From Acorus gramineus (taxonomy: Eukaryota; Streptophyta; Magnoliopsida; Acorales; Acoraceae), in NCBI GenBank assembly GCA_030737835.1, contig CM060850.1:27563385-27627384 (forward strand): a stretch of DNA of 64,000 bases. The letters are read 5' to 3'. The position numbers and the translations under genes are program-made. Positions 16,267-61,678 of this stretch are shown piece by piece (position 1 is the stretch's first letter; each line of letters starts with the position of its first letter). The notes under the pieces are model-generated. The model was not told the DNA's origin. It ran no database searches and saw nothing but the letters and a program-made list of their open reading frames with translations.

Positions 16267-16347
<81 letters not shown>
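16267..16347. repeat. (TA)n microsatellite
   Basis: About 40 uninterrupted AT dinucleotides end exactly at the left border of the GC-rich element. A shorter (TA)n tract, 16905-16926, continues on its right side. The element therefore appears to sit inside what was once one (TA)n tract. Confidence 0.9.
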
Positions 16348-16350
<3 letters not shown>

Positions 16351-16904
16351 GCGCGATGGGGTGCGACCGTGCGCACGGTGCACCCCTCGTGCGCCCCTAA
16401 CGTCGACCGTGCGATCGACGTTCTCACGATCGCATGGTCGACGTTTTTTTTTAAAAAAAAAACAAAAAAAACCAAGACCGACCCCCGTCGACGACGACCG
16501 CGACCGACTGCACGGACCGACCCCCGTCGACGACGACCGCGACCCCCGTCGACGACTGCACGGACCGACCCCCGTCGCCCCCGTCGACGACGACCGACTG
16601 CACGGACCGACCCCCGTCGACGACGACCGCGACCCCCGTCGACGACTGCACGGACCGACCCCGTCGCCCCCGTCGACGACGATCGCGACCGACTGCACGG
16701 ACCGACCCCTATCGACGACGACCGCGACCCCGTCGACGACTGCACAGATCGACCCCCATCGACGACGTTTTTTTTTTTCGTTTTTTTTGTTTTTTTTTTA
16801 AAAAAAAACGTCGACCGTGCGATCGCGAGAACGTCGATCGCACGGTCGACTTTAGGGGGGCACGAGGGGTGCACCGTGCGTACGGTCGCACCCCATCGCG
16901 CCCC
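16348..16904. mobile_element. GC-rich inverted-repeat element inside (TA)n
   Basis: The element is 557 bp and extremely GC-rich in an AT-rich region. Its ends are near-perfect inverted repeats of about 105-125 bp, starting GGGGCGCGATGGGGTGCGAC and closing in the exact inverse GTCGCACCCCATCGCGCCCC, with roughly five mismatches over the first 105 bp. Each end contains its own palindromes: ACCGTGCGCACGGT, and the GTCGACCGTGCGATCGACG region. Each arm ends in T9-A9 type tracts before the core. The core is a tandem repeat (separate entry). Flanks are pure TA, so the target is TA or (TA)n. Rice Micron elements are known to sit in (TA)n in this manner, but I cannot link the sequences. There is no plausible coding sequence; the long open frames are repeat translations. 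It is likely a non-autonomous DNA transposon, young, given the arm identity. Confidence 0.75.
16476..16765 (+). repeat. Tandem repeat core, 42-48 bp units
   Basis: About six full units and a partial one. Each unit starts GACCGACCCCCGTCGACGAC and closes ACTGCACG. Unit length alternates because the CGACCGACTGCACG and CCCGTCGACGACTGCACG endings swap, suggesting a higher-order repeat. The unit is rich in GTCGAC palindromes and CpG, so it should be heavily methylated in a plant nucleus. Confidence 0.85.
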
Positions 16905-16926
16905 TATATATATATATATATATATA

Positions 16927-21710: not shown

Positions 21711-23832
21711 GGGGAGTATGTCTCGAATTCGTGGGAGGCATGTCTCAGATTCATGAAGGAGTATATCCCGGATTCATAGTCTTATGTCAATGAAAATCCC
21801 CCATGAAACCGAGACTATGAATCTAGGACCACACTCACCCATAAATCTGAAATCATGAATTCAAGAACATACTCTCACATGAATCCGAGACATACTCTCC
21901 CCATGACTCCGATACACTCACCCAAGAATCCAAGACATACTCATGAAACTGGATTCGGGGGGGGGGGGGGAGCGTATGTCTCGGATTCATGTCGGACTAA
22001 TAATGGGGGGAATATGTCTCAGATTCATGGGGGGTGCCTCAAATTCATGGCAGGGGAGCATGTCTCGAATTTCATAGGGAGGATGTCTTGGATCCATGGG
22101 GGGTTTTAGATTCATGGTCTAATTCATGGGGAGTATATCTCGGATTCATGGGGGGAAATAAAGGGGAGTATCGTATCAGATTCATTGGGGAGTATGGTCT
22201 AGGATTCATTGCATGGTACATCTCGCGTTCACGGTAGGATATGTCTCGGATTCATAAGGGGGAGTATGATCTCAGATTCATAAGGGGTAAGCTTAGGATT
22301 CATGGGGGGTATGTCTCGCATTAATGGAGGAGTGTCTCAGATTTATGGGGGAGTGTGCCACAGATTCATGGGTATGTCTTAGATGCATGGAGGGTAAGGT
22401 CTCTGATTATGGTATGTCTCCAATTAATGGGGGAGTATGTCTCCGAATCATGAGGGTCAATATGTCTCCGGGTAAATATGTCTCCGATTTACGGGGGATA
22501 TGTCTCCGATTCATGGGTATATTTCAGATTCATGGGGGGTATATCTCGAATTTTCATGGGTATGTTTTGGATTCGTGAGGGGTATGTCTCAGATTCATAA
22601 GGGGTTGTCTCGAATTCATGGGGGAGTATATCTCTGATTCATGAGTATGTTTCATATTCATGGGGGGGTATATCTCAGATTCATGTGGGAGTATGTCTCA
22701 GATCATGGTCTTGGATTCATGGGGGAGTATGACCTCGGATTCATGGGGGAGTATGGTCTCAGATACAGGTATGGATTCATGATCCTGGATTCATGGGGGG
22801 TATGTCTCAGATTCATTATAAGGTATGTCTCGGATTCATGGTGGGTATGTGTCGGATTCACTGGTAGGGAGTGGGAGAGTATGGTCACGAATTCATGGGG
22901 TGGAAGTATGGTCTCGAATTCATGGGGGGTATGTCTCAAATTCTTGAGTATATTTCATATTCATAGGGGTGTATGTCTCTGATTCATGGGGTGAGTATGT
23001 CTCTGATTCATGCGTATATTTCATATTCATGGGGTGTATGTCTAAGATTTACAAGGGAGTATGTCTCCGATTCGCGGGGTATGTCCCCGATTTATGTGTA
23101 TATTTCATATTCACGGGGGTATGTCTCGGATTCATGGGGGAGTATGGTCTCGGATATATATGGGAGCATGTCTCGCGTTCAAAGGGAGTATGGTCTCAGA
23201 TTCACGAGGAGAGTTTGTCTCAGATTCATGGGGGAGTATGTCTCTGATTAATAGTCTTGGATTCATGCGAAAGTATGTCTCGGATTCATAGGGGAAGTAT
23301 GTCTCGAATTCATAAGGGAGCATGGTCTCGGATTCTTGGGGGAGTATGTCTCGGATTCATGAGGGAGTATGGGCTCTGATTCATGGTCTCGGATTCATGG
23401 GGGAATGGTCTCAGATTCATAAGGGAGCATGGTCTCGGATTCTTGGGAGAATATGTCTCGGATTCATGGGAGAGTATGGGCTCTGATTCATGGGGGAATA
23501 CATCTCCAATTCATGGGTGGAGTATTTCTCCGATTCATGATATCAGATTCATGATGGAGTATATCTCAGTTTCATGGGAGAGTATGTCTCTAATTGATGG
23601 TAGACAATGTCTCGGATTCATGGGAGTATGGATAGTATGGTCTCGGATTCATGAGGGGAGTATGGTCTCGGATTCATGAGGGAAGTATGGTCTCGGATTC
23701 ATGGGAAAGTATATCTTCGATTTGCGGGGAAGTATGTCTCCGATTTGCGAGGGAGTGATTTATGGGTATTTATCAGATTCATGAGGGGTATGTCTCGAAT
23801 TCATGAGGGAATGTCTCATATTCATGGGTACG
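21711..23832. repeat. Degenerate 23-24 bp minisatellite with a strand switch
   Basis: A 2.1 kb array of the unit GTATGTCTCGGATTCATGG plus a G-rich tail (GGGA), with the 24-base variant GTATGGTCTCGGATTCATGG. Many units carry single changes (CAGATT, CCGATT, GAATTC). At about 21793-21950 the units run in the opposite direction (CATGAATCCGAGACATACTC), then the array returns to forward orientation through a 14-base G run at about 21957-21970. The open frames through this region (peptides of the type VSDSWG) are a by-product of the unit length, not genes. Confidence 0.92.
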
Positions 23833-36864: not shown

Positions 36865-37393
36865 GGGAAAATTTCAAATAACCCCTTGTAAACGGTTTAA
36901 AATCCATATAATCCATGGACTTTTCCTGAAGTCTGTATAACCCTCTAAAAAAAATTGTGTAAATCCAAATACCCCTCTGAGTTAAACTTCCATTAACAGA
37001 TGAAAAATATTATGTGAATATTCCGTTTGGTTAACCCTGGCTAAAAACACAGTACACTGGAATCCTCTATAATGTGTAAAATATGTGAAAAACACTCTAT
37101 TAAATGATGATTTTATCCCCCTCTGAATAGATTATAAAACTCTATCCAAATGACTAAAATCGTCATTTACAGAAGATTTTTCACATTTTTAACATATTGT
37201 AGAAGTTTTCAGTATATTGTGTTTTCAGTTATATGTTTAACTAAACAAAATATTACTCATATGTCAATGAAAATTCAACTCATGAGGTTATTTGGATTTA
37301 TATAGATGTTTTTAGAGTTATATAGACTTCAAAAAAAGTGATGAGGTTATTTAGATCTCAAACAGTTTACAATGGGTTATATGTATTTTTCTC
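36865..37393. mobile_element. Foldback MITE, Mutator-like
   Basis: The element is 529 bp and folds back over most of its length. The left half runs GGGAAAATTTCAAATAACC...AATCCATATAATCC, and the right half returns its inverse, ending GGTTATATGTATTTTTCTC. Flanks TATAAAATT and TAAAAAAAT agree at seven of nine positions, a weak 9 bp duplication. Fragments of the same family occur at 17745 and 19196. Non-coding. Confidence 0.65.
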
Positions 37394-41226: not shown

Positions 41227-42267
41227 TTTTATTTATTTATTTTTATTTTTATTTTGGATAAAATCAGTTTCCACATTTAGTGGCGGTCTACGAGTCCTCC
41301 ATTTCCGTGCGCGTCGAGACCACTCGTGTGAACGGCCGGGCTTTGCAGGCCGGGTCAATTTCAGGCCCACTGAGCCGGACCTGGTCAACTGCGACGCGCG
41401 CGCGTTCGCTTAAACGTCTCGCCTCGATTTTTTTTAATCTGATGATACGCGAGGTTATTCGTGTTATGATGCTCTGCATCGATGGGAAGCTAGAGTGGGT
41501 GAATATGAAGAGGACGGGTTGGTGTTGAAAATGAAAAAAAAAGAGAGAGAGAAGATTAGCCTGTGCTTTTTGGAGGTTATAAAGTTGGACCATCTAACGG
41601 TGGTTAGTTGGAGCTAACCCTTGAACACCCGCATCAAAACATTATTTATTAGTGCGGCAGTTGACTGAAGTTTGAGTTTCAACCAAGATGATGACACACA
41701 TTTTTTTTTTTCAAATATAATGCATGTTTCATAGACTTATATATATAATTATTATAATTATTTGAACGCAATGCGTGAAAACCATTGATACATAGTAAGC
41801 TCTGTTTGTATTAATAGAAACGATCCATCAATTGTATATACATTGTGATAGTACATTATACATCGCATTGTATGAAAATTACTTAAAAAAATACACTGAC
41901 ATGTTTTAGGGTATACTTCATTTTTTTATGACCGCATGTACTTCAATGAGAAATGTTTATATTTCAAAAAATAAATCAGTAAAAAAAATTATAATTATAT
42001 ATTTATAATTTTATATGTAACTAGATTGTCTAACACATTAATTTAAATTAATTAAAAGTAATCTATATTACATATTCAATAAATTTCATTGGATTAAAAA
42101 AATTATAGTTTTAATACACATTTATAATTTTTGGATAACTTTTGTTATCAACAAATGAGTATATTCATTATTATTTTTATTTGTTATTTTATTGGTGGAT
42201 TGTTCTTGGATTAATATATCATATTATTAACGGGTTGTAGGGATATAGGCATGGTTCATTTATTTTA
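41227..42267. other. GC-richer patch then AT-rich spacer
   Basis: The segment 41280-41530 is GC-richer than its surroundings, with GCGCGCG and CCGGGC motifs, and is open for 82 codons on the plus strand from 41280, but I recognise no domain. From 41760 to 41970 lies a copy of the dispersed AT-rich repeat also seen near 1030, 36030, 50090 and 55930. The remainder is featureless. Confidence 0.4.
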
Positions 42268-42432
42268 TTCTATTTTATATTTTTTATTATTTAAAATAAT
42301 TAATTTGGATTGAAGGGTTTGAACGTCAAATAATTAACAGGTTGGTAAGTCAGCGTCAAGACTCGAACTTAGGATCTACCAGTAACACCGCTAAGCCCTG
42401 AATCATTGTACTACGATAACTGGAGACAACCG
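42268..42432 (-). mobile_element. Possible tRNA-derived SINE
   Basis: On the minus strand, TAGTACAATGA (42413-42403) resembles an RNA polymerase III A box, and AGTTCGAGTCT (42369-42359) resembles a B box, about 35-45 bp apart as in tRNA-derived promoters. The text between, CAGGGCTTAGCGGTGTTACT, resembles a tRNA-like SINE head, and the unit ends in an A/T-rich tail near 42268. Flanking duplications were not found. It could also be a decayed tRNA-like segment. Confidence 0.4.
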
Positions 42433-42947
42433 TTGTGCCCTGAATATTAGTTAGTTCATCATGGATAAAGAGATAAGATTGAAATCTACGTGGATAAAGA
42501 GATAAGATTGAAATCTAGGTTCGGTGAAGAGGGGTGAATAGCTATAAATTAGGAGAGGGTTCAATCATTAATAGTTATTCCCGTTCATATATTTTTTTAG
42601 CTTATTTATTCAATGCATCCATCTCCATATTTTCTAAATAACAAATTTTCTTTTCCTTGTGTTCAAAAACCTTCTACAAACGATTAGAAATCTTGAACGT
42701 CTGTTCGCTATTCAAGTTATGAATCTCATTAGTTTCATAGAAGAAAAAAAAACTTGAATACTCAGTTGATTCAAGCACTACTGTATAAAGATTTTAGAAT
42801 GCAAATACATGAAATTTTTTGTCACTATCAATCACCCACATCTAAGTAATCTTTCTCTCTATTACTGATCTTTCTATATTTTGTTACTGACTCATATTAA
42901 CAATTATATAAGGTGACTGAAAAAAGAAAAGAAGATAAAAGAAAAAC

Positions 42948-43970
42948 ATGGTTCAGTGGAGAAGAGAAGAGGGAGAGGCATGCACGTTTGATGTTCTTCC
43001 TAAAGACATGCCACCCTTGTGTCTTCCTTTGGGAAACCTCATATTCATCTTGCTTGCGTCAAATCCATGTAAGCTATGCTTTTTATTTTTGTCTTTGTTT
43101 ATAGAGCGATGTTATACAACACGTTTATAGCCTCATCTGCACTATCATATGTCTAGATAGTTGTCCAACATCATATACATCTAGTTAGATATGATCTAGT
43201 TATATACTTGCAAAAGGAGCTATAAATAAGGCAATGTCCAAAATTTTCCTTCTTTATAAGTTAATATGTTATCACATTAATTTATTGTTAATTATTTATT
43301 TGAACATGCATACTTTCGTGGTTTACCTAAGTGTTTAACTTTAGATGTAAAACATTCAAGTTAACGGTGAATGACAAACTTGTAAAGCAGCAGATCAAAT
43401 TTTATGAAGCTTTTGATTGGAAATCACCAGCCTAGTACTCAAGATTGTTTTGAGGGTCAAAACCTATAGGTCATGCATGTATATTAAAGGAATAGTAAGA
43501 AAAACTACTGATATTTTAATAGAATAGTCTCTCGTTCATATTATGTTTTCAATTATTAACATGAAAGTTTATTTATATTTCCTATATAAATGTTGATTAT
43601 TTTCAATGTGATGATACTGAAGCAGGTATCAGCCAACTCAAAAGGGCAACAAACATGGGCTCTATCGAAGTGGTGTACACGTTGGGAGTGATTTATTTGA
43701 GCTCTAATTCGATGAGCAAAGGGTTTGAATTGCTTCACAAAGCCATCACGAGGTGGTGCAAGGAGCAGAGTCGAATGAGGTCGTGGTCGATATTGAGCGT
43801 GATACGGAAGAATCATAGACTGTCTTTACAGGACTGCGTCTACGAGAACGTGAAATGCGTTATATCGAGAGAGAAGGGGATGGGGAGATGGGGGCTTTCA
43901 TGATCAATATTGCTCTAACCGCTGCACGTGGATGAACGAGTATTGGAATTTCTGTGTGCACACTTATTGA
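42948..43970 (+). pseudogene. Decayed F-box gene, left copy (At1g67623-like family)
   Basis: Exon 1 (42948-43068) starts ATGGTTCAGTGG and keeps a worn F-box start (TFDVLPKDM). It ends at a good donor (AT|GTAAGC). Exon 2 begins at 43627 after CAG and reads ISQLKRATNMGSIEVVYTLG and then SKGFELLHKAI, resembling the Sel1-like helical repeats of F-box proteins of the At1g67623/At2g35280 type. The last part, which should end in a QYCSNRCTWMNEYWNF-type cysteine segment, is out of frame after about 43890. The F-box itself is short and shifted. As host gene copies these would have encoded substrate adaptors of SCF ubiquitin ligases; this copy is unlikely to make a working protein. Confidence 0.7.
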
Positions 43971-44054
43971 ATATGAAGTTTGCTGACATGAATGCTCTCA
44001 CAACAAATTATATATTCACATGAACCGTCAGCAGACTCCTTATTTAGTATGTGT

Positions 44055-45712
44055 TCAGAAATTTTGATACTCATTCATCCACATTCGACAACTAAAGCAG
44101 TATTGATCTTGAATGCCCTCTTGATCCCATCTCCTAATCCTCTTCTCTCTCGACATCCCACACTTCACGTTCTCGCACTCGTAATCTTGTAATGATAACC
44201 TATGATTCTTCCATTTCGCACTCAATATTGACCACAACCTCTTCCGGCTTTGCTCTTTGCACCCTCTTGTGATCACTTTGTGAAGCAGCTCGAACCCTTG
44301 CTCACTGGTCGAATCAGAGCTCAAATAAATTCCAATGCGTACAACACTTTGATGGAGCCCATATTTTCTGTTTTTTTGAGTTGGCTGATACCCGCTTTAG
44401 TGTTATCACATTGGAAATAATCAACCTACATATATAGGAATGTATATAAACTCACGTTAATAATTGAAAACATAATATGCGTGAGGGACCATTCTTTTTA
44501 ATATTTTAGTTTTCTTTACCATTCCCTTAATGTATATGGCTCATGGGTTTTCACCCTCTAAACAATCTTCAAACAACCTTGAGTATTGGGTTGGTGATTT
44601 CCAATCATAAGCTTCAAAAAAATTGATTTAATTATGAATCAATATATGTTCAAATTCATAATTGATTAAGAGTAAATAAATGTGATAACCTAAAAAAATG
44701 TTAAACACAATCTTGTGCACAACTAGGGACGGGTTTGGTGAAACTCGAACTCCAACTTGCTAACAAAAACTCGTCCCAAACCCGTGACGGGTTTAGATTT
44801 TCCACTTCAAATTTGTCCCAACAGGTATATAAAAAACCTGCACCCACCCCAACCCGTCTCATTTAGATCTGATCGGGTTGGATCAAAATGGGTTTGGGAA
44901 AAAAAAAACCCAAAATTTAGAAGGTTGGAAACAAGAAAAAAAACACTATAATTATTTTTTATTTACATTGTTGGAACTTGAAAAAACTGTAGTTTTTAAA
45001 GTTTATTTGAAGGATGATAATAAAATGAACTAAGAGGGTGATAAATGGATGCACGTATTCATCAATGAACATGAAGAAAAAAATTTAATAAAAAAAAAAA
45101 TAAAACCAAAATCCAATTATATGTGATACCTAGATGGAATGAAAAAGAGATGTAGAATGATGTATGATGCCAACAACGGGTAATGGTCAATGATCGTGTA
45201 TTTCTGCGTCTTTGTGGGACTTCGTGGCTGATGCGGATTTGGGATTTTTAATCAATATTTCAATTTATTCTTTTATCTAAAAAAAGAATTATTACAATTT
45301 ATTCATTCTTTGTTTTTTTATTTTTGGAATAAAAAAACAAAGCTAAAATAAATCCCATTGTCATCCTTTTGTACAACCACCCAGCCTATAGTTCTCTGTC
45401 TATTTTGAATTCTTCTAAAAAGTATATCTCAATTGTATATAAAATATATCCAACAAATTATATGAACACAAATTATATGATGATGGACAACTATTGAGTA
45501 ATGGTAGTGCAGATGTGATTGTATGCATGTTTAGATGTAACAATGCCCTGTAAAAAAATGACAAAGAAGAAGAAGAAGCGGAGCTTACATTGATTTTGCA
45601 CATACAAGGTGAACGTTAGGTTCTCCCGAGGAAGACGCAAGGCCACCATGTCCTCAGGAAGCGCATCAAGCATGCATGCGCCTCTTCCTCTTCTCTTCTT
45701 CATTGAACCCAT
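44055..45712 (-). pseudogene. Decayed F-box gene, right copy, inverted
   Basis: Mirror copy of 42948-43970. Exon 1 (45712-45589) reads MKKRRGRGACMLDALPEDM, a better-kept F-box start than the left copy, and ends at the same AT|GTAAGC donor. Exon 2 should begin near 44391, but the acceptor CAG of the left copy is CGG here, so splicing is doubtful. A two-base loss near the GVIYL position shifts the frame. The C-terminal half (SEQGFELLHKVITRGCKEQS to QYCFSCRMWMNEYQNF, stop at 44057-44055) is open and complete. The intron is longer than in the left copy and contains a hAT-like fragment at 44723-44905. Confidence 0.7.
44723..44905. mobile_element. Truncated hAT-like MITE fragment
   Basis: It starts TAGGGACGGGTTTGG and repeats ACCCGT and CGGGTT phrases like the elements at 2303 and 26059, but no right end or target duplication is found. 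It lies in the intron of the right F-box copy and is absent from the left copy, so it inserted after the inverted duplication or was lost from the left arm. Confidence 0.45.
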
Positions 45713-47516
45713 GTTTTTTCGTTTTCTTTTCTTTTATTTTTTGTTTTCTTTTGATCACTAAGTACTCCTTATAATGGTTAGTATGAGTTAGTAACAGATA
45801 TAGGAAAGTCGGTAATAAAAAGAGATATTACTTAAAATACTTAAAATGAAAGGGGGGTTCAATGATATTGGTCTCTCTTTGTATTTCAATGGAAGTGTAT
45901 AATTTTATTTATTTATTTAAAAAAAAACAATGTGGACTATAGGTGTGACTGCACAAGATGGACATCATTTTTCAAGACTAATATAGAGCGTTGATACACT
46001 CAGTTCGTTTTACAGCTCAGGCTGCATCCCCATAGCGTTCTATCATAATCTATTATTTACTTATTAAAAGAATTCTGTGACCCAATATTTCCATTTTTCA
46101 TTTTTATAATTAATTTAATTTTTTTAATTCCTGATAGTAATAAATTTATTTAAATTTTAAAATTTTAAAATCATTAAATGATACGATCTGATCTAATAAG
46201 AATATGATTTGTTTAATTACTAAACTATTATTATCAGATTTAGATAAATTATAAAATTTTAAGATATCAAAATCAGATTTTATTAAATCATATAAATATA
46301 TTTTTATTTTAAAATCAATAAATCATATCTACATATTCTATTTTTTTTAATTTCAAAATTAAATATATTCACCATATATATCCATTAAATTTTATTTCCA
46401 TGAATATGTTTTTTTGTAATAGAATGAAAAAACCCTCATGAACTAAAATAAATTATATAAGTGTACATATGAATGTGCATATAATATACCTTATAAATCT
46501 ATATATCTATCTATTATCTACTACTTACTTATTAAAAGGATTATGTGACCCAATATTTTCATTTCTTTTTTTATCCTTTATTCAATTGTTTAATTATTCA
46601 ATAGTCATAGATTTATTTAAATTTAAATTTTTAAAATTATTCAATTATACAATCCAATCTAATAAGATCACTTTTTATCCTTTAATCAATTGTTTAATTG
46701 CTAATAGTAATAAATTTATTTAAATTTTAAAATTATTTAGTGATACAATCTAATCTAATAAGATTGTGATATGATATGATAAAAAATAATGATCTATTGT
46801 TTATTAGATGTGATCCAGCTTTTTCATGTTTATTTTTACCCCCATAAATTTAATAAAAAAAATTATTTATTTTTTAAAACTTATTCATTTTTTATTTATT
46901 TATTATTTGACTTTGTAAATAATAAAATCAATGTACATGTTATATTTCATACATTATGTATTTTGTATCTTTTTGTTTTCTTTTATTCGATTGTTTTCAA
47001 AAAAAAAATAGTCACACGTAATTTTTATTTATTTTTGAATTTTTTGCTATTTATTTCCATTTATACTTATCATCTTTTATTTTCAAATTTTTTACACCCT
47101 ATTTTTTGGGATTCTTATTTAATAAAGGTTTTATGATTTTAAAAATCTTATATATATTTTCTTGTTTCTTTCATCACATAAATATACTTGTTAATTATTG
47201 AAATTTAAAATCCCTAAAGATAATTTAAATTAAATAAATAATTGATAGAAAATGAGTTTTTTTATTTTAAATTTCATGATAGATAAAAGAAAATAAAAAC
47301 ACAAATCGATTTGAATGTTTTTTAAAATTTAAATTTATCAGTTTTTTATTTTAGGATAAATATTTTAACCCATTCTCTCTTGATTTTAGGATAAAATCCA
47401 CCTAAAAAACTATAATTGCTCCTCACCTCTCCTATTAAAGTTCATTCCATTTTTTAGCTCTTCATCTCTTTAGAAAAGAATTTTACTTTTCACTTTTTCT
47501 GTGTTATGATTTATGT

Positions 47517-49560: not shown

Positions 49561-50079
49561 TTTATTTAAAAAGTAACCTTCAACCTAAAATAGTGGACTA
49601 TATACATATAAAGAGAGAGTTTATAGGGTTGTTAGGGAGTTATTAAAAGATTTAGTTATTTTTTGGGTTTTTTTTCAAGACTATACATTTTATTTTTTTA
49701 TGATTTATTTGTGAGAGTAGAACATGTGCAAAAAATTTTGACTGCTGTTTATTGTTTTTTTTATTTCACTAGCATAAAAATATTGATGATTCTTCATTTA
49801 TTAATGATTGAACTAATAATATGTGTCCAATGTTTTTTTATTTTTCTTTATGAAGATATTTATGATTGATATTACATTTAAGATATTTATATGCTGTCTC
49901 TATAGAATAGTAACATATTCTTTTTTAGTATAATATATAAAAAAAATTGTATTTTTATTTAATGATTATTTAATTTTTGCATAATATATAATTGTCACTA
50001 TATTTTATTTATATATATATAACTATGAATGTTATACCACATGCTTTGGCATGCGCATGATAACTAGTATATGAAGTAA

Positions 50080-52301
50080 AAAAATTATTTTTTAAAAATA
50101 AAAAATACATATACTGTTGTATATCAGTATATATTTTATTTCATACAACAACATGTACTTTATTAAGAGAGTATGAATTTTTTTTAAAATTGTCTGAAGT
50201 GCGGTTGGGGCTGCACGAGGGGTGGACATAACATTTTTTCGATGGAAAATGATATATCCAACCCCATTACAGCCCCAACTGTAGTTTACACATGTTTTCT
50301 TTTTTAAAAAAAATTTATACTCTCCAATTGAAATAAATATTGTTATATGAAATGAGGTATATATTAAAATACATTAGCGTATTTTTTTAGCATTGATAAA
50401 ATGATAAAAAATTTACGTTATACACTATGATAAAAACTTATGCACTATGATAGCTCAGTATATACTATGTTTTCGTAATGTATTAGACTGCAAAATGAAC
50501 TCAGTATATCAACACTCTTTTCCTATTGGAATAACACCATGGGGAATGGAACTTGGAAAAGCCCACACTTGGAAAAGCCCATGAAGCCATGAAGGGCTAC
50601 TCCGCATGGAAGGACATTGTATATATCTTAGAACAAAATTTTACTCACTTTACCATATGGTTTTGTCTTAAAACAGAAAGCATTAATTGGCATGTGTTGA
50701 CACATCATATGTTAGCAATCTACCGAGTACTCTATGCAACTTGTATATTCTTTTCATTTTCTGTTTTTTCCCCCCACATTTGGATCCAAATTGCCACTGA
50801 CAAAAGAGTTAGTGAAAAACAACTGCAACTAATGAGCAGGTCTGTTTAATCATTGGGTGTGAAGTGAGTCCTCATGGGGATTATTTCAAAGAATTTTGTT
50901 TCTTATGCATGCTTTCAATTACCTAACTTCATGGGACCAAACTCATGTTGCTTAAAGCACTTTTTTTTTGTTTTTTGGGTTGCAAGAGGCCACAGGTGAT
51001 TTCTCAGGGAAATAACTGCACTACACCTCTCCCTATTGCCATGGTAAAATAAAGAAAGTATATATACAACCATTTGTAAGATATATGATAGTTTTACATA
51101 TTTTATCAAAAATATAAGCAGGACTAAAAATGATGTTATTATAATATTATTCATGATTCTGCATTTGTGATAATCCTGTATGTGGGATCTCAAATTTTTC
51201 ATCTCTCGGATCGCAAACGTATCTTCACTGTTAGAGATGAGAATGTGGCCAATGTTACTGTCGAAAGTTGATATTTATTCTACTATTTAAATTTGAGTTT
51301 TTTCAGATTCAGCACAAATATGAATTTTTTTATAATTGATATTTTTTAAATATTGATATACTAGTTAGATGATCATGTGAAACATTAAAAATAAAAGATG
51401 AAATTTTTAAAAATATGAGGGTTGAAGACTTTAGGATTTTCATTATTTTTCAGATTTCATAGATAGTTGTTTGTTTAAATTTTAAGGATCATGATTAATT
51501 ATATACAATAATTGAATTAAGTAGTCTCACATACAAATTTTGTAATTTTATATTATTAATTAGTTTTTTAGAAAGAAAACTTGATATTTTTATTCATTTC
51601 TAAAATACTCTAGATATTCAAATATTATAAAATAATATTATTCTTTAGATACGAAAATCGTTACTGGGAAGCATCACAATCACGTCCTCTATCTTCAAGC
51701 TTGAAAAATATGTAGTCCTTGCACCAATCTCCAATAATGTATGGTTAGGATATTATTACACTAGTCATTTTTTATACCACTCTTGCTGTCTACGCTTTCA
51801 TCTAACCTAATGTATACTGACCTATAACCAGTCTCTAAAAAATCATTTCAGTGTCACTTTGTTTAAGTTGATTCAGTTCAATTTGTATGATTACCTAATG
51901 TGATTCGTGAACATTCAATTCGTTATATAAGTTATTAAGTTTAATATAAAAAATTTCTCAATCCCTTGTTATGGATTAACTAGTTTTGATCAGATCTAGT
52001 TTTAAACAAATTAGGCGTCCACATGGGGCACGCATGCACTACTTAATTGGATAGTAGGGTGATGTACAAAAATTAAATCAACCACTCACTATTCAGGGTC
52101 TATGATAGCCTTCAAAAATTCCAATAAAAAACTATTCCTATTTGAATTAGAGACATTATTAACCTATGATTAATTTAACATTCATGGCCCTTGTGGTCAT
52201 TTACTCATTAGGCTATACAAAGCGTTAGGACATGCTCGTAATTAAATCCATTGATTACATATACACATGATAGCGAGTAGTGAGCCAACCACAATGTGAT
52301 T
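50080..52301. other. Spacer with a foldback repeat
   Basis: At about 50090-50470 the sequence folds back: TTAAGAGAGTATGAATTTTTTT on the left against AAAATTTATACTCTCCAATTG on the right, around GGTTGGGGCTGCA and CAGCCCCAACTG. It belongs to the AT-rich dispersed family also near 1030, 36030, 41770, 53480 and 55930. The segment 50550-51230 is less repetitive but shows no recognisable gene. The last part probably includes the 3' UTR of the WAT1-like gene. Confidence 0.5.
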
Positions 52302-59410: not shown

Positions 59411-60202
59411 GGTTGGGTTGAGAAAGTTGAGTTTGAGAGAAAGGATGAAAAATAGTCCTATTATTTTAGTTCAACATCAGTTGTTTAAAAAATATTTTAA
59501 AGATTTATAATGTATACTTTTGTATCCTAGTGAATTTTTTTTGTGAACACCTTATAGTGGACCTTTGATGTGGGGTAGTGCGTAGCACCACCACGCGCGT
59601 CGCGCGCATGTGTCATATTAGGCATTTTAAAGGTACACTTTTCTTCTTTTTTGTTAATCGGATGGTGGAGATCATTTTAATCATATACAATCTGTACCGT
59701 CCAATGGAAGAAAGTTCAGATGCATTGTGCATTATTGGATTGATCAGTTAGTAGTTACATTGATCAAAGGGTGCCATTGGAAAGAATGCATTATATGGTG
59801 GACGATCTGGACCACACGATCGAATGAAAATGCTGGAAAAAGGGTATCTTTTTTGTACCAAGAGGAACCATTTGACATGTAAAAGGAGACACTTAGATCT
59901 GAATTTAATAGAATAACATCCACTCATAGCATCTACCTTTTCTTTAAAAAAAAAAAAAAAACATCCACTCATCCTCTCATTTCTTCCATTACAAGTTAAC
60001 ATCATCAACCCTATAAAAAAAAGAGTCATAAGAGGTTAGAAACAAAGAGTACAAATTCTGAGTTCAACACTAATGGAGGCTTCATTGTATCCTGAAGGTT
60101 GTACTTCATCATTCCCAAGGGCAGATCTAGGACTTTATTTTGGAGTGGGCTGAATTAATTTTTTATAGTAAAATTTTTACTTTATATTTTATAAAAAAAT
60201 AT
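59411..60202. other. Spacer, nothing recognised
   Basis: No gene is supported. A short GC-rich phrase, CCACGCGCGTCGCGCGCATG, near 59592-59611 is palindromic in part. The rest is ordinary AT-rich sequence. Confidence 0.5.
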
Positions 60203-60211
60203 TAATTTTTA

Positions 60212-60762
60212 GGGTTATTTAGTTTCCACCCCTCCAAAAACAAGTCAATTATTAAAAACCCCCTCTAAAACATAATATTATTATAAACCCCCTTTAAATG
60301 TTAATTGGATTTGTATAAAACCCAAATAAGTTATTTTTTGACGGAATAGGTTATTAAATGATGGATTAACAATAATACCCTTACTAAAAAATATCCTAAC
60401 TTGATATAAAATTTTGGGAGTATTAATTTCTTTTTGTTTTGTTGACTGTTGAGTTTTACAAATCCCATTAACATTTAAAGGGGGTTTATAATGATATTGT
60501 GTTTTATAGTGTTATTTTTAATAATTTTCCTGTTTTAGGAGGGGTAAAAACTAAATAACATTTTTTTTCTATCAAGTTAGGATTTTTTAGTAATGGTATT
60601 ATTGTCAATCCATCATTTAATAACTTATTCCGTTAAAAAATAACTCATTTGGGTTTTTTACAAATTCAGTTAACATTTAAAGGGGGTTTATAATAATATT
60701 GTGTTTTAGAAGGGGTTTTTAATAATTTGACTGTTTTAGGAGGGGTGGAAACTAGATAACCC
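60212..60762. mobile_element. Mutator-type MITE, complete, perfect 9 bp target duplication
   Basis: The element is 551 bp and starts GGGTTATTTAGTTTCCACCC, ending in the near-exact inverse GGGTGGAAACTAGATAACCC. Homology between the inverted ends continues for at least 80 bp (AAAACA, TCAATTATTAAAAACCCC and TTATTATAAACCCC blocks). It is flanked by TAATTTTTA at 60203-60211 and 60763-60771, identical at all nine positions. This is the Mutator superfamily signature. Non-coding. A second copy reaches into the window at 1-363. Confidence 0.9.
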
Positions 60763-60771
60763 TAATTTTTA

Positions 60772-61678
60772 ATATCTATACTTAAAATAATCAAATAAAT
60801 ATATTTGTATTTCATTAGATTTTTTTACATTTAATAAAAATGAGTCCATTCAATTCGAAATGGAGTGATATACATTTTTTATCAAAACATATACCCCGTT
60901 AAATGATGTTTATTATTTTAAAAAAAAATAAAATATCTATGGTCTGCGTTTTGAACTGTAAACAAAACTTTGTCTTAACATTTTTTATTTTCTCTGTCTC
61001 TACTTAAATTATATTAATCAACCGATTATTATAATCAAAATCAAAACTAACGAACCAAACAATGAAACAAAAACAAATAAAAGACATTCAAGTAGATTCA
61101 AAGCGTCACAATTTGTGGAATAAAAAAATATATATATACTATCGAGGAGGATGAAAATTGAAGGTTGTACAGTTGGGAATAAAGACAAAAAATGAAAACA
61201 TTTTATTTGATTAAAGAAGTCAAAATTTCCAAAATAAAAAAAAATGTACCAAATATGGGGATTAAAAAACAGAGTAATGCCACGTGAAGGTGGATAGAAA
61301 AGGAATCTGGGGATTTATAAAATTATATTTTATGGATGTTAATCTAGGTGGAGAGATTCAGGGGATATGGTAGTTATTTGTAGACTATTTGGAGAGAAAT
61401 TTAGGGGATGATGTCTAGTGATGCATATAGGTGAGCTGTGCAGTCTGGGCCGGTCTGTAATCCCACGTGGCTCCGCCCCTGATCATTCTCTTTTGTTCTT
61501 CTGGTTTTTACTTGAGCAGAAAAAGTCTGTCTAAAATTATAAAAAAATAACTTATTAAGAGTGCATATGAGTATATGAGTTTATATATCAAGGGGTGGGT
61601 TGTATGTAATAATAATAAAAAAAATTACCGGTTTGTGAGGTAATTTCTGAACTTATTTTGATTTTTTTTTTTTGAAAA
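60772..61678. other. Spacer, nothing recognised
   Basis: AT-rich, with a short (TA)n tract near 61130. No open frame or transposon end that I can support. Confidence 0.5.

Follow-up and report, generated by a model that had tools for sequence, protein, structure and literature searches.

Tail-to-tail duplicates and inverted pairs of paralogous pseudogenes are a familiar arrangement in plant gene families. In Arabidopsis, the long hairpin small interfering RNA (siRNA) loci IR71 and IR2039 reportedly combine closely matched arms with abundant siRNAs. Excerpts of two studies describe microRNA (MIRNA) genes of related origin: in Fahlgren et al. 2007 (PMC1790633), a protein-coding origin is reported for 16 MIRNA loci of Arabidopsis, and Zhang et al. 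2011 (PMC3237417), using an identity threshold of >0.8 to a cDNA, report one MIRNA that overlaps two adjacent inverted paralogous pseudogenes. Here we describe two broken F-box/TPR_27 gene copies lying tail to tail in a 64,000-nucleotide window of the Acorus gramineus genome (assembly GCA_030737835.1, contig CM060850.1, here C4:27563385-27627384), which an initial annotation had singled out as a candidate hairpin-RNA locus. Positions below are those of the window.

The locus shares with other plant tail-to-tail duplicates its convergent, adjacent, decayed family members, whose contig also carries intact relatives, but its spacer is almost nil and its arms meet. Like IR71 and IR2039, it is a long inverted repeat from which double-stranded RNA (dsRNA) could form without a polymerase; unlike theirs, its arms are 77.7% identical. 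The general premise of the annotation, that inverted duplicates can be a starting point of MIRNA genes, is backed by the excerpts of both studies (PMC1790633, PMC3237417). The pair resembles progenitors under the Allen model, as those excerpts present it, in being a convergent protein-coding duplicate with a foldable RNA, and differs in that its arms are ~22% diverged and that it is known from DNA sequence alone. Because the locus has neither youth nor arm matching, it does not point to this known kind of MIRNA progenitor. It is very probably an ordinary ageing pair of tail-to-tail paralogues whose complementarity is leftover homology. Its value is mainly that of a control. However striking, an inverted gene pair is not by itself evidence of RNA function, which would call for arms that resemble each other more than they resemble unlinked copies, or for change that keeps pairs.

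Structure and decay of the pair

Comparison of the sequence with itself by blastn identifies 43394-44627 as its own reverse complement (74.4% over 1279 aligned columns, E printed 0.0), together with an outer inverted pair, 42843-43177 and 45474-45834 (70.9%, E 1.1e-42), whose blocks carry exon 1. Alignment with relatives resolves each arm into the remnant of a three-exon gene, the two being convergent; the left copy and arm are called L, the right ones R. The tail-to-tail placement of two broken F-box copies is thereby borne out, as is arm similarity over more than 500 bp beside the centre. The annotation's figure of about 45 bp between the 3' ends has to be replaced: in L the TGA corresponding to the stop of intact copies ends at 43970, and the open frame of R reaches 44055, a gap of 84 bp, while the homologous arms nearly touch. 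The homology of the L 3' untranslated region (UTR) stops at ~43995 and that of R at ~44001, so that the spacer is ~5 bp. The arms are of unequal build. Exon 2 of R has lost its initial ~50 bp, acceptor included, so that homology jumps from 44627 to intron-1 sequence at 44642-44712. Judged by eye against the copy on another contig introduced below, R retains ~22 bp more 3' UTR than L.

The genome (398.6 Mb, 137 contigs) was searched with arm DNA and protein queries; only the best candidates are scored, and the copy count is a lower bound. Among the matches listed, the close copies are C4:27251, C4:27203 and C1:6302 (hereafter C1), the last on another contig, and distant matches lie on C3 and C2. 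Two of these, C4:27251 and C4:27203, are intact paralogues of the kind the annotation had suggested seeking, with open three-exon frames and GT/AG borders, ~354 and 402 kb from the pair (C4:27250479-27252241 and C4:27203371-27204237) and encoding proteins of 230 and 232 aa (exons joined by eye). Both contain TPR_27 (PF23310; Pfam, 1.4e-22 in C4:27251 and 2.9e-20 in C4:27203), and their F-box is weak, with 13.4 bits (F-box-like) in C4:27251 and 12.9 bits (F-box) in C4:27203, below the Pfam cut-offs. The broken pieces of the pair, compared alone with Pfam, give sub-threshold matches only; the arms belong to the F-box/TPR_27 family, as pseudogenes, by their match to the intact three-exon paralogues. 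The label At1g67623-like is that of the annotation; family assignment here goes through Pfam and the intact paralogues. At1g67623 appears in a published table of targets of the novel small RNA miRN08. The C1 copy has stops and frame breaks, and no exon-1 match is found within its 3651-base locus.

Both copies have lost 16 bp from exon 1. In L, exon 2 is further interrupted by two TAG codons with an 11-bp loss between them and a 4-bp gain after the second, the AG of the last intron is lost, and exon 3 has losses of 3 bp and 8 bp. In R, the start of exon 2 is missing with its acceptor, the remaining exon 2 contains a TGA, exon 3 is 4 bp short and ends early at a TGA, and intron 1 holds dispersed-repeat segments. 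The claim that the copies are broken at different positions is right for the other lesions and wrong for two: the 16 bp are missing from the same ~25-bp stretch of exon 1 in L and R, and the same exon-2 codon is a stop in L (TAG), R (TGA) and C1 (TGA). A single exon-1 deletion predating the duplication is not built on, because the apparent breakpoints lie 4-5 bp apart.

Divergence of the arms

The two arms resemble each other no more than they resemble copies elsewhere. L and R are 0.777 identical (597 sites), against 0.801 for L and C1 (592) and 0.808 for R and C1 (599); identity to C4:27251 is 0.778 for L (617 sites) and 0.787 for R (619), while C4:27203, which lies outermost, is 0.669 identical to L and 0.699 to R. 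Selection on the stem would be expected, though not strictly required, to leave the arms more alike than unlinked family copies, which they are not. When 565 complete columns are resampled 5000 times, L-R is the highest of the five identities (L-R, L-C1, R-C1, and L and R with C4:27251) in 7.3% of the resamples. In one tree, L, R and C1 form an open fork, with support of 84/88 for the trio. The best tree joins L and C1 at 78/83, support that is not strong, and forcing L and R to be sisters costs 5.2 log units (p-AU 0.077), so that their sisterhood is not formally rejected. At exon-3 third positions and in the last intron, differences number 39/212 for L-C1, 53/210 for R-C1 and 63/216 for L-R; the contrast with L-R is significant for L-C1 (Fisher p 0.009) and not for R-C1 (p 0.39).

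The view that the arms stayed matched while their frames decayed therefore fails, because they are no closer mutually than to the C1 copy, which is unable to pair in cis. The divergence gives no sign that arm folding has been kept for a purpose. Gene conversion keeping the arms alike is rejected, the arms being no more alike than other copies, and a false duplication in the assembly is unlikely, because they differ by 22%.

At near-neutral sites the arms have diverged by K = 0.369, which would correspond to ~12, 26 and 74 million years if the rate were 1.5e-8, 7e-9 and 2.5e-9 per site per year, respectively, all three being assumed values. These dates, inferred as they are, are old at all three rates, so the arms are not young, contrary to the youth that the annotation had allowed as an explanation.

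Codon pattern and pairing

The differences between the arms appear to bear the mark of past coding constraint and none of pairing constraint. In exon 3, L and R differ at 35/244 first and second positions and at 42/124 third positions (p 2e-5). The same excess is seen between R and C1 (42/250 and 39/127, p 0.002) and between L and C4:27251 (38/250 and 37/126, p 0.002), and is absent between L and C1 (51/248 and 28/126, p 0.79). Pairing is blind to codon position, and the concentration of L-R differences at third positions thus argues for past protein constraint rather than pairing.

Compensating changes would be expected to leave sites at which L equals R against C1 and C4:27251. This grouping accounts for 10 of the 41 informative sites, the other two groupings for 16 and 15. 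On the + transcript, differences that keep a G:U pair are not significantly more numerous than those that break the pair as A:C (50 vs 44, p 0.61), and selection for wobble-keeping is rejected. An unusual excess of transitions is likewise rejected, with a ratio to transversions of 94:39 for L-R vs 81:37 for L-C1 (p 0.78) and 76:39 for R-C1 (p 0.49).

Predicted folding

A transcript crossing the centre would, as the annotation anticipated, form a long duplex: the 1234-nt + transcript gives a single predicted foldback of 510 pairs at -680.7 kcal/mol (-646.8 for the - strand), against a mean of -283 kcal/mol for 10 mononucleotide shuffles. A foldable long duplex is what a hairpin-siRNA locus would need; in this prediction it is a consequence of the inverted layout and does not prove that the duplex is used. 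Artificial hairpins were made by joining the arms of copies by script, and 20 ordered pairs were folded. The L-R hairpin reaches -0.566 kcal/mol per nt, compared with -0.578 for L-C1, -0.596 for C4:27251-R and -0.578 for C4:27251-C1, and the other 8 ordered combinations of the four close copies lie between -0.505 and -0.565. Three of the 11 other ordered pairs are thus more stable than L-R and eight less; the 8 pairs with C4:27203 are weaker, at -0.359 to -0.454. Unlinked copies joined in this way fold about as stably as the pair itself, and the stability of the hairpin is therefore attributed to homology and orientation.

Origin of the pair and alternative explanations

In the favoured account, an old local duplication or juxtaposition would have put two F-box/TPR_27 family members tail to tail. 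After separating, both copies would have gone on coding for protein for some time and would then have decayed: frames shifted, stops arose, one splice site and the start of one exon disappeared, and repeats were inserted. The order and mechanism of duplication, and the lack of function, are likewise inferred. The C1 copy keeps a part of the 3' UTR that is absent from L, and an order in which the fold-back came first and C1 was copied from L would thus need a later loss at the centre. Should transcription of either copy persist and run through a 3' UTR of ordinary length, the RNA would span the centre and fold into a possible substrate for Dicer-like enzymes; such processing of dsRNA would be a by-product and not a maintained function.

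Some observations weigh against this account. The exon-2 stop common to L, R and C1 is hard to square with a coding constraint that still acted on exon 3 once L and R had split; to reconcile them, either translation would have to start at an ATG within that exon or the losses would have to be independent. Over the 565 complete columns, L-R identity (0.791) is just above both C4:27251 values (0.788 and 0.790), though not above the C1 values, and in the outer exon-1 block, where C1 has no match, L-R (0.737) narrowly leads L-C4:27251 (0.727) and R-C4:27251 (0.704). Joint changes of L and R number 10 against 5.3 expected under independence, although the control groupings exceed their expectation more (17 vs 6.5 and 17 vs 6.4). 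Counting G:U as pairs, the predicted stem is unbroken over 24-32 pairs in four places. Transcription is possible, since the two copies can still be aligned for ~100 bp upstream of the ATG.

A working hairpin-siRNA locus, in which DCL2/3/4 would process a read-through duplex from either copy and the resulting siRNAs would silence C4:27203 and C4:27251, with no selection visible in the arms, is unlikely. The strong predicted foldback would suit it, as would the existence of intact paralogues and the perfect runs shared with C4:27251 (31 nt and 23 nt in R, 21 nt in L), but excess pairing constraint is absent, and perfect 21-nt windows number only 4/632 between the arms and 0 between either arm and C4:27203. 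That a centre-crossing transcript yields siRNAs against these two paralogues, making the dead pair a trans-silencer of its family by position alone, is a shade less likely still. If small RNAs were made, the pair would be a hairpin locus without visible stem selection, standing where the route towards a MIRNA gene just begins, or where it ends.

The annotation's own reading, a recent inverted duplication in which pairing or gene conversion then preserved the likeness of the arms, is very unlikely: the order of parts is the same in both arms, the spacer is near zero and 16 bp are missing from the same stretch of exon 1, but the arms are no closer mutually than to unlinked copies, and near-neutral sites put L closer to C1. 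Least probable is a young MIRNA gene giving one dominant small RNA from part of the stem. Its geometry fits the inverted-duplication model, with precedents in the excerpts of PMC1790633 and PMC3237417, but at K ~0.37 the pair is not young, and the arms, 77.7% identical to each other, are 77.8% and 78.7% identical to the nearer intact gene, which is not the picture of a recent origin. No Rfam match to E 1 is found in 42000-46500, and conservation of a 21-nt segment was judged from perfect-window counts only, with no separate scan made. A search for tRNA genes in the window (bacterial settings) finds 0. In the literature, no report of a young MIRNA from an inverted F-box gene duplication was found, and the matches listed for endogenous hairpin siRNA with F-box pseudogene are off topic by title.

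Feature coordinates

Table 1. Parts of the inverted F-box pair, in window positions.
Feature	Position	Strand	Details
L exon 1 remnant	42948..43068	+	ATG 42948, GT donor 43069; 16-bp loss near 43008 shifts frame; aligned with two intact paralogues
L exon 2 remnant	43345..43494	+	TAG 43433-43435; 11-bp loss near 43440; TAG 43467-43469, then 4-bp CATG gain
L exon 3 remnant	43592..43970	+	acceptor AG lost directly upstream; internal 3-bp and 8-bp losses
Foldback inner left arm	43394..43995	+	blastn and alignment
Centre	43996..44000	.	~5 bp without assigned homology; by eye against C1 copy
Foldback inner right arm	44001..44627	-	exon 3, last intron, most of exon 2
R exon 3 remnant	44055..44425	-	4-bp loss near 44331; early TGA ending 44055
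R intron 1, remainder	44628..45473	-	intron homology 44642-44712; dispersed repeats ~44726-44903 and 44993-45188; exon 2 start missing
R exon 1 remnant	45589..45712	-	ATG 45712-45710; 16-bp loss near 45643
Outer left block	42843..43177	+	~105 bp upstream of ATG, exon 1, intron 1 start
Outer right block	45474..45834	-	counterpart of 42843-43177

The two repeat segments in intron 1 of R, 44726-44903 and 44993-45188, are dispersed genome-wide; the whole stretch has at least 42 matches including itself, with 40 of 96 candidates scored.

Other foldbacks and repeats

Foldbacks were compared over 121,306 bases, made up of the window and six stretches chosen for their F-box matches, and so not randomly sampled. 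They contain five further self-complementary blocks that have no spacer (363-525 bp, 67-71%), two in the window (36867-37391 and 50065-50427) and one in each of the stretches L043, L044 and L045. Such structures are therefore not rare in the sampled sequence; 43394-44627 is the longest of the six, and none of the other five matches it.

The block at 36867-37391 (71.4% over 545 columns) is AT-rich with a ATAACCCCTTGTAAAC-like stretch near one end, and resembles a foldback MITE (miniature inverted-repeat transposable element). That at 50065-50427 (68.4% over 374 columns) has a 64-bp piece (78%) in common with an element on C2. This C2 element occurs at 2401-2784 of L044 and 2953-3336 of L045 in copies that are 95.6% alike, each a few kb from an exon-1-like F-box match, a pairing that suggests a segmental duplication on C2. 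A direct-repeat array, ~67-69% alike over up to 1.8 kb, occupies 21966-23830 (self-comparison, among the matches listed). Positions 12-363 and 60408-60760 form a direct repeat of 91.5%, with inverted pieces at ~60170-60805 of 85-88%. A 150-bp inverted repeat, 16326-16475 and 16777-16926, has a 301-bp spacer and arms 96% identical, far better matched than those of the F-box pair.

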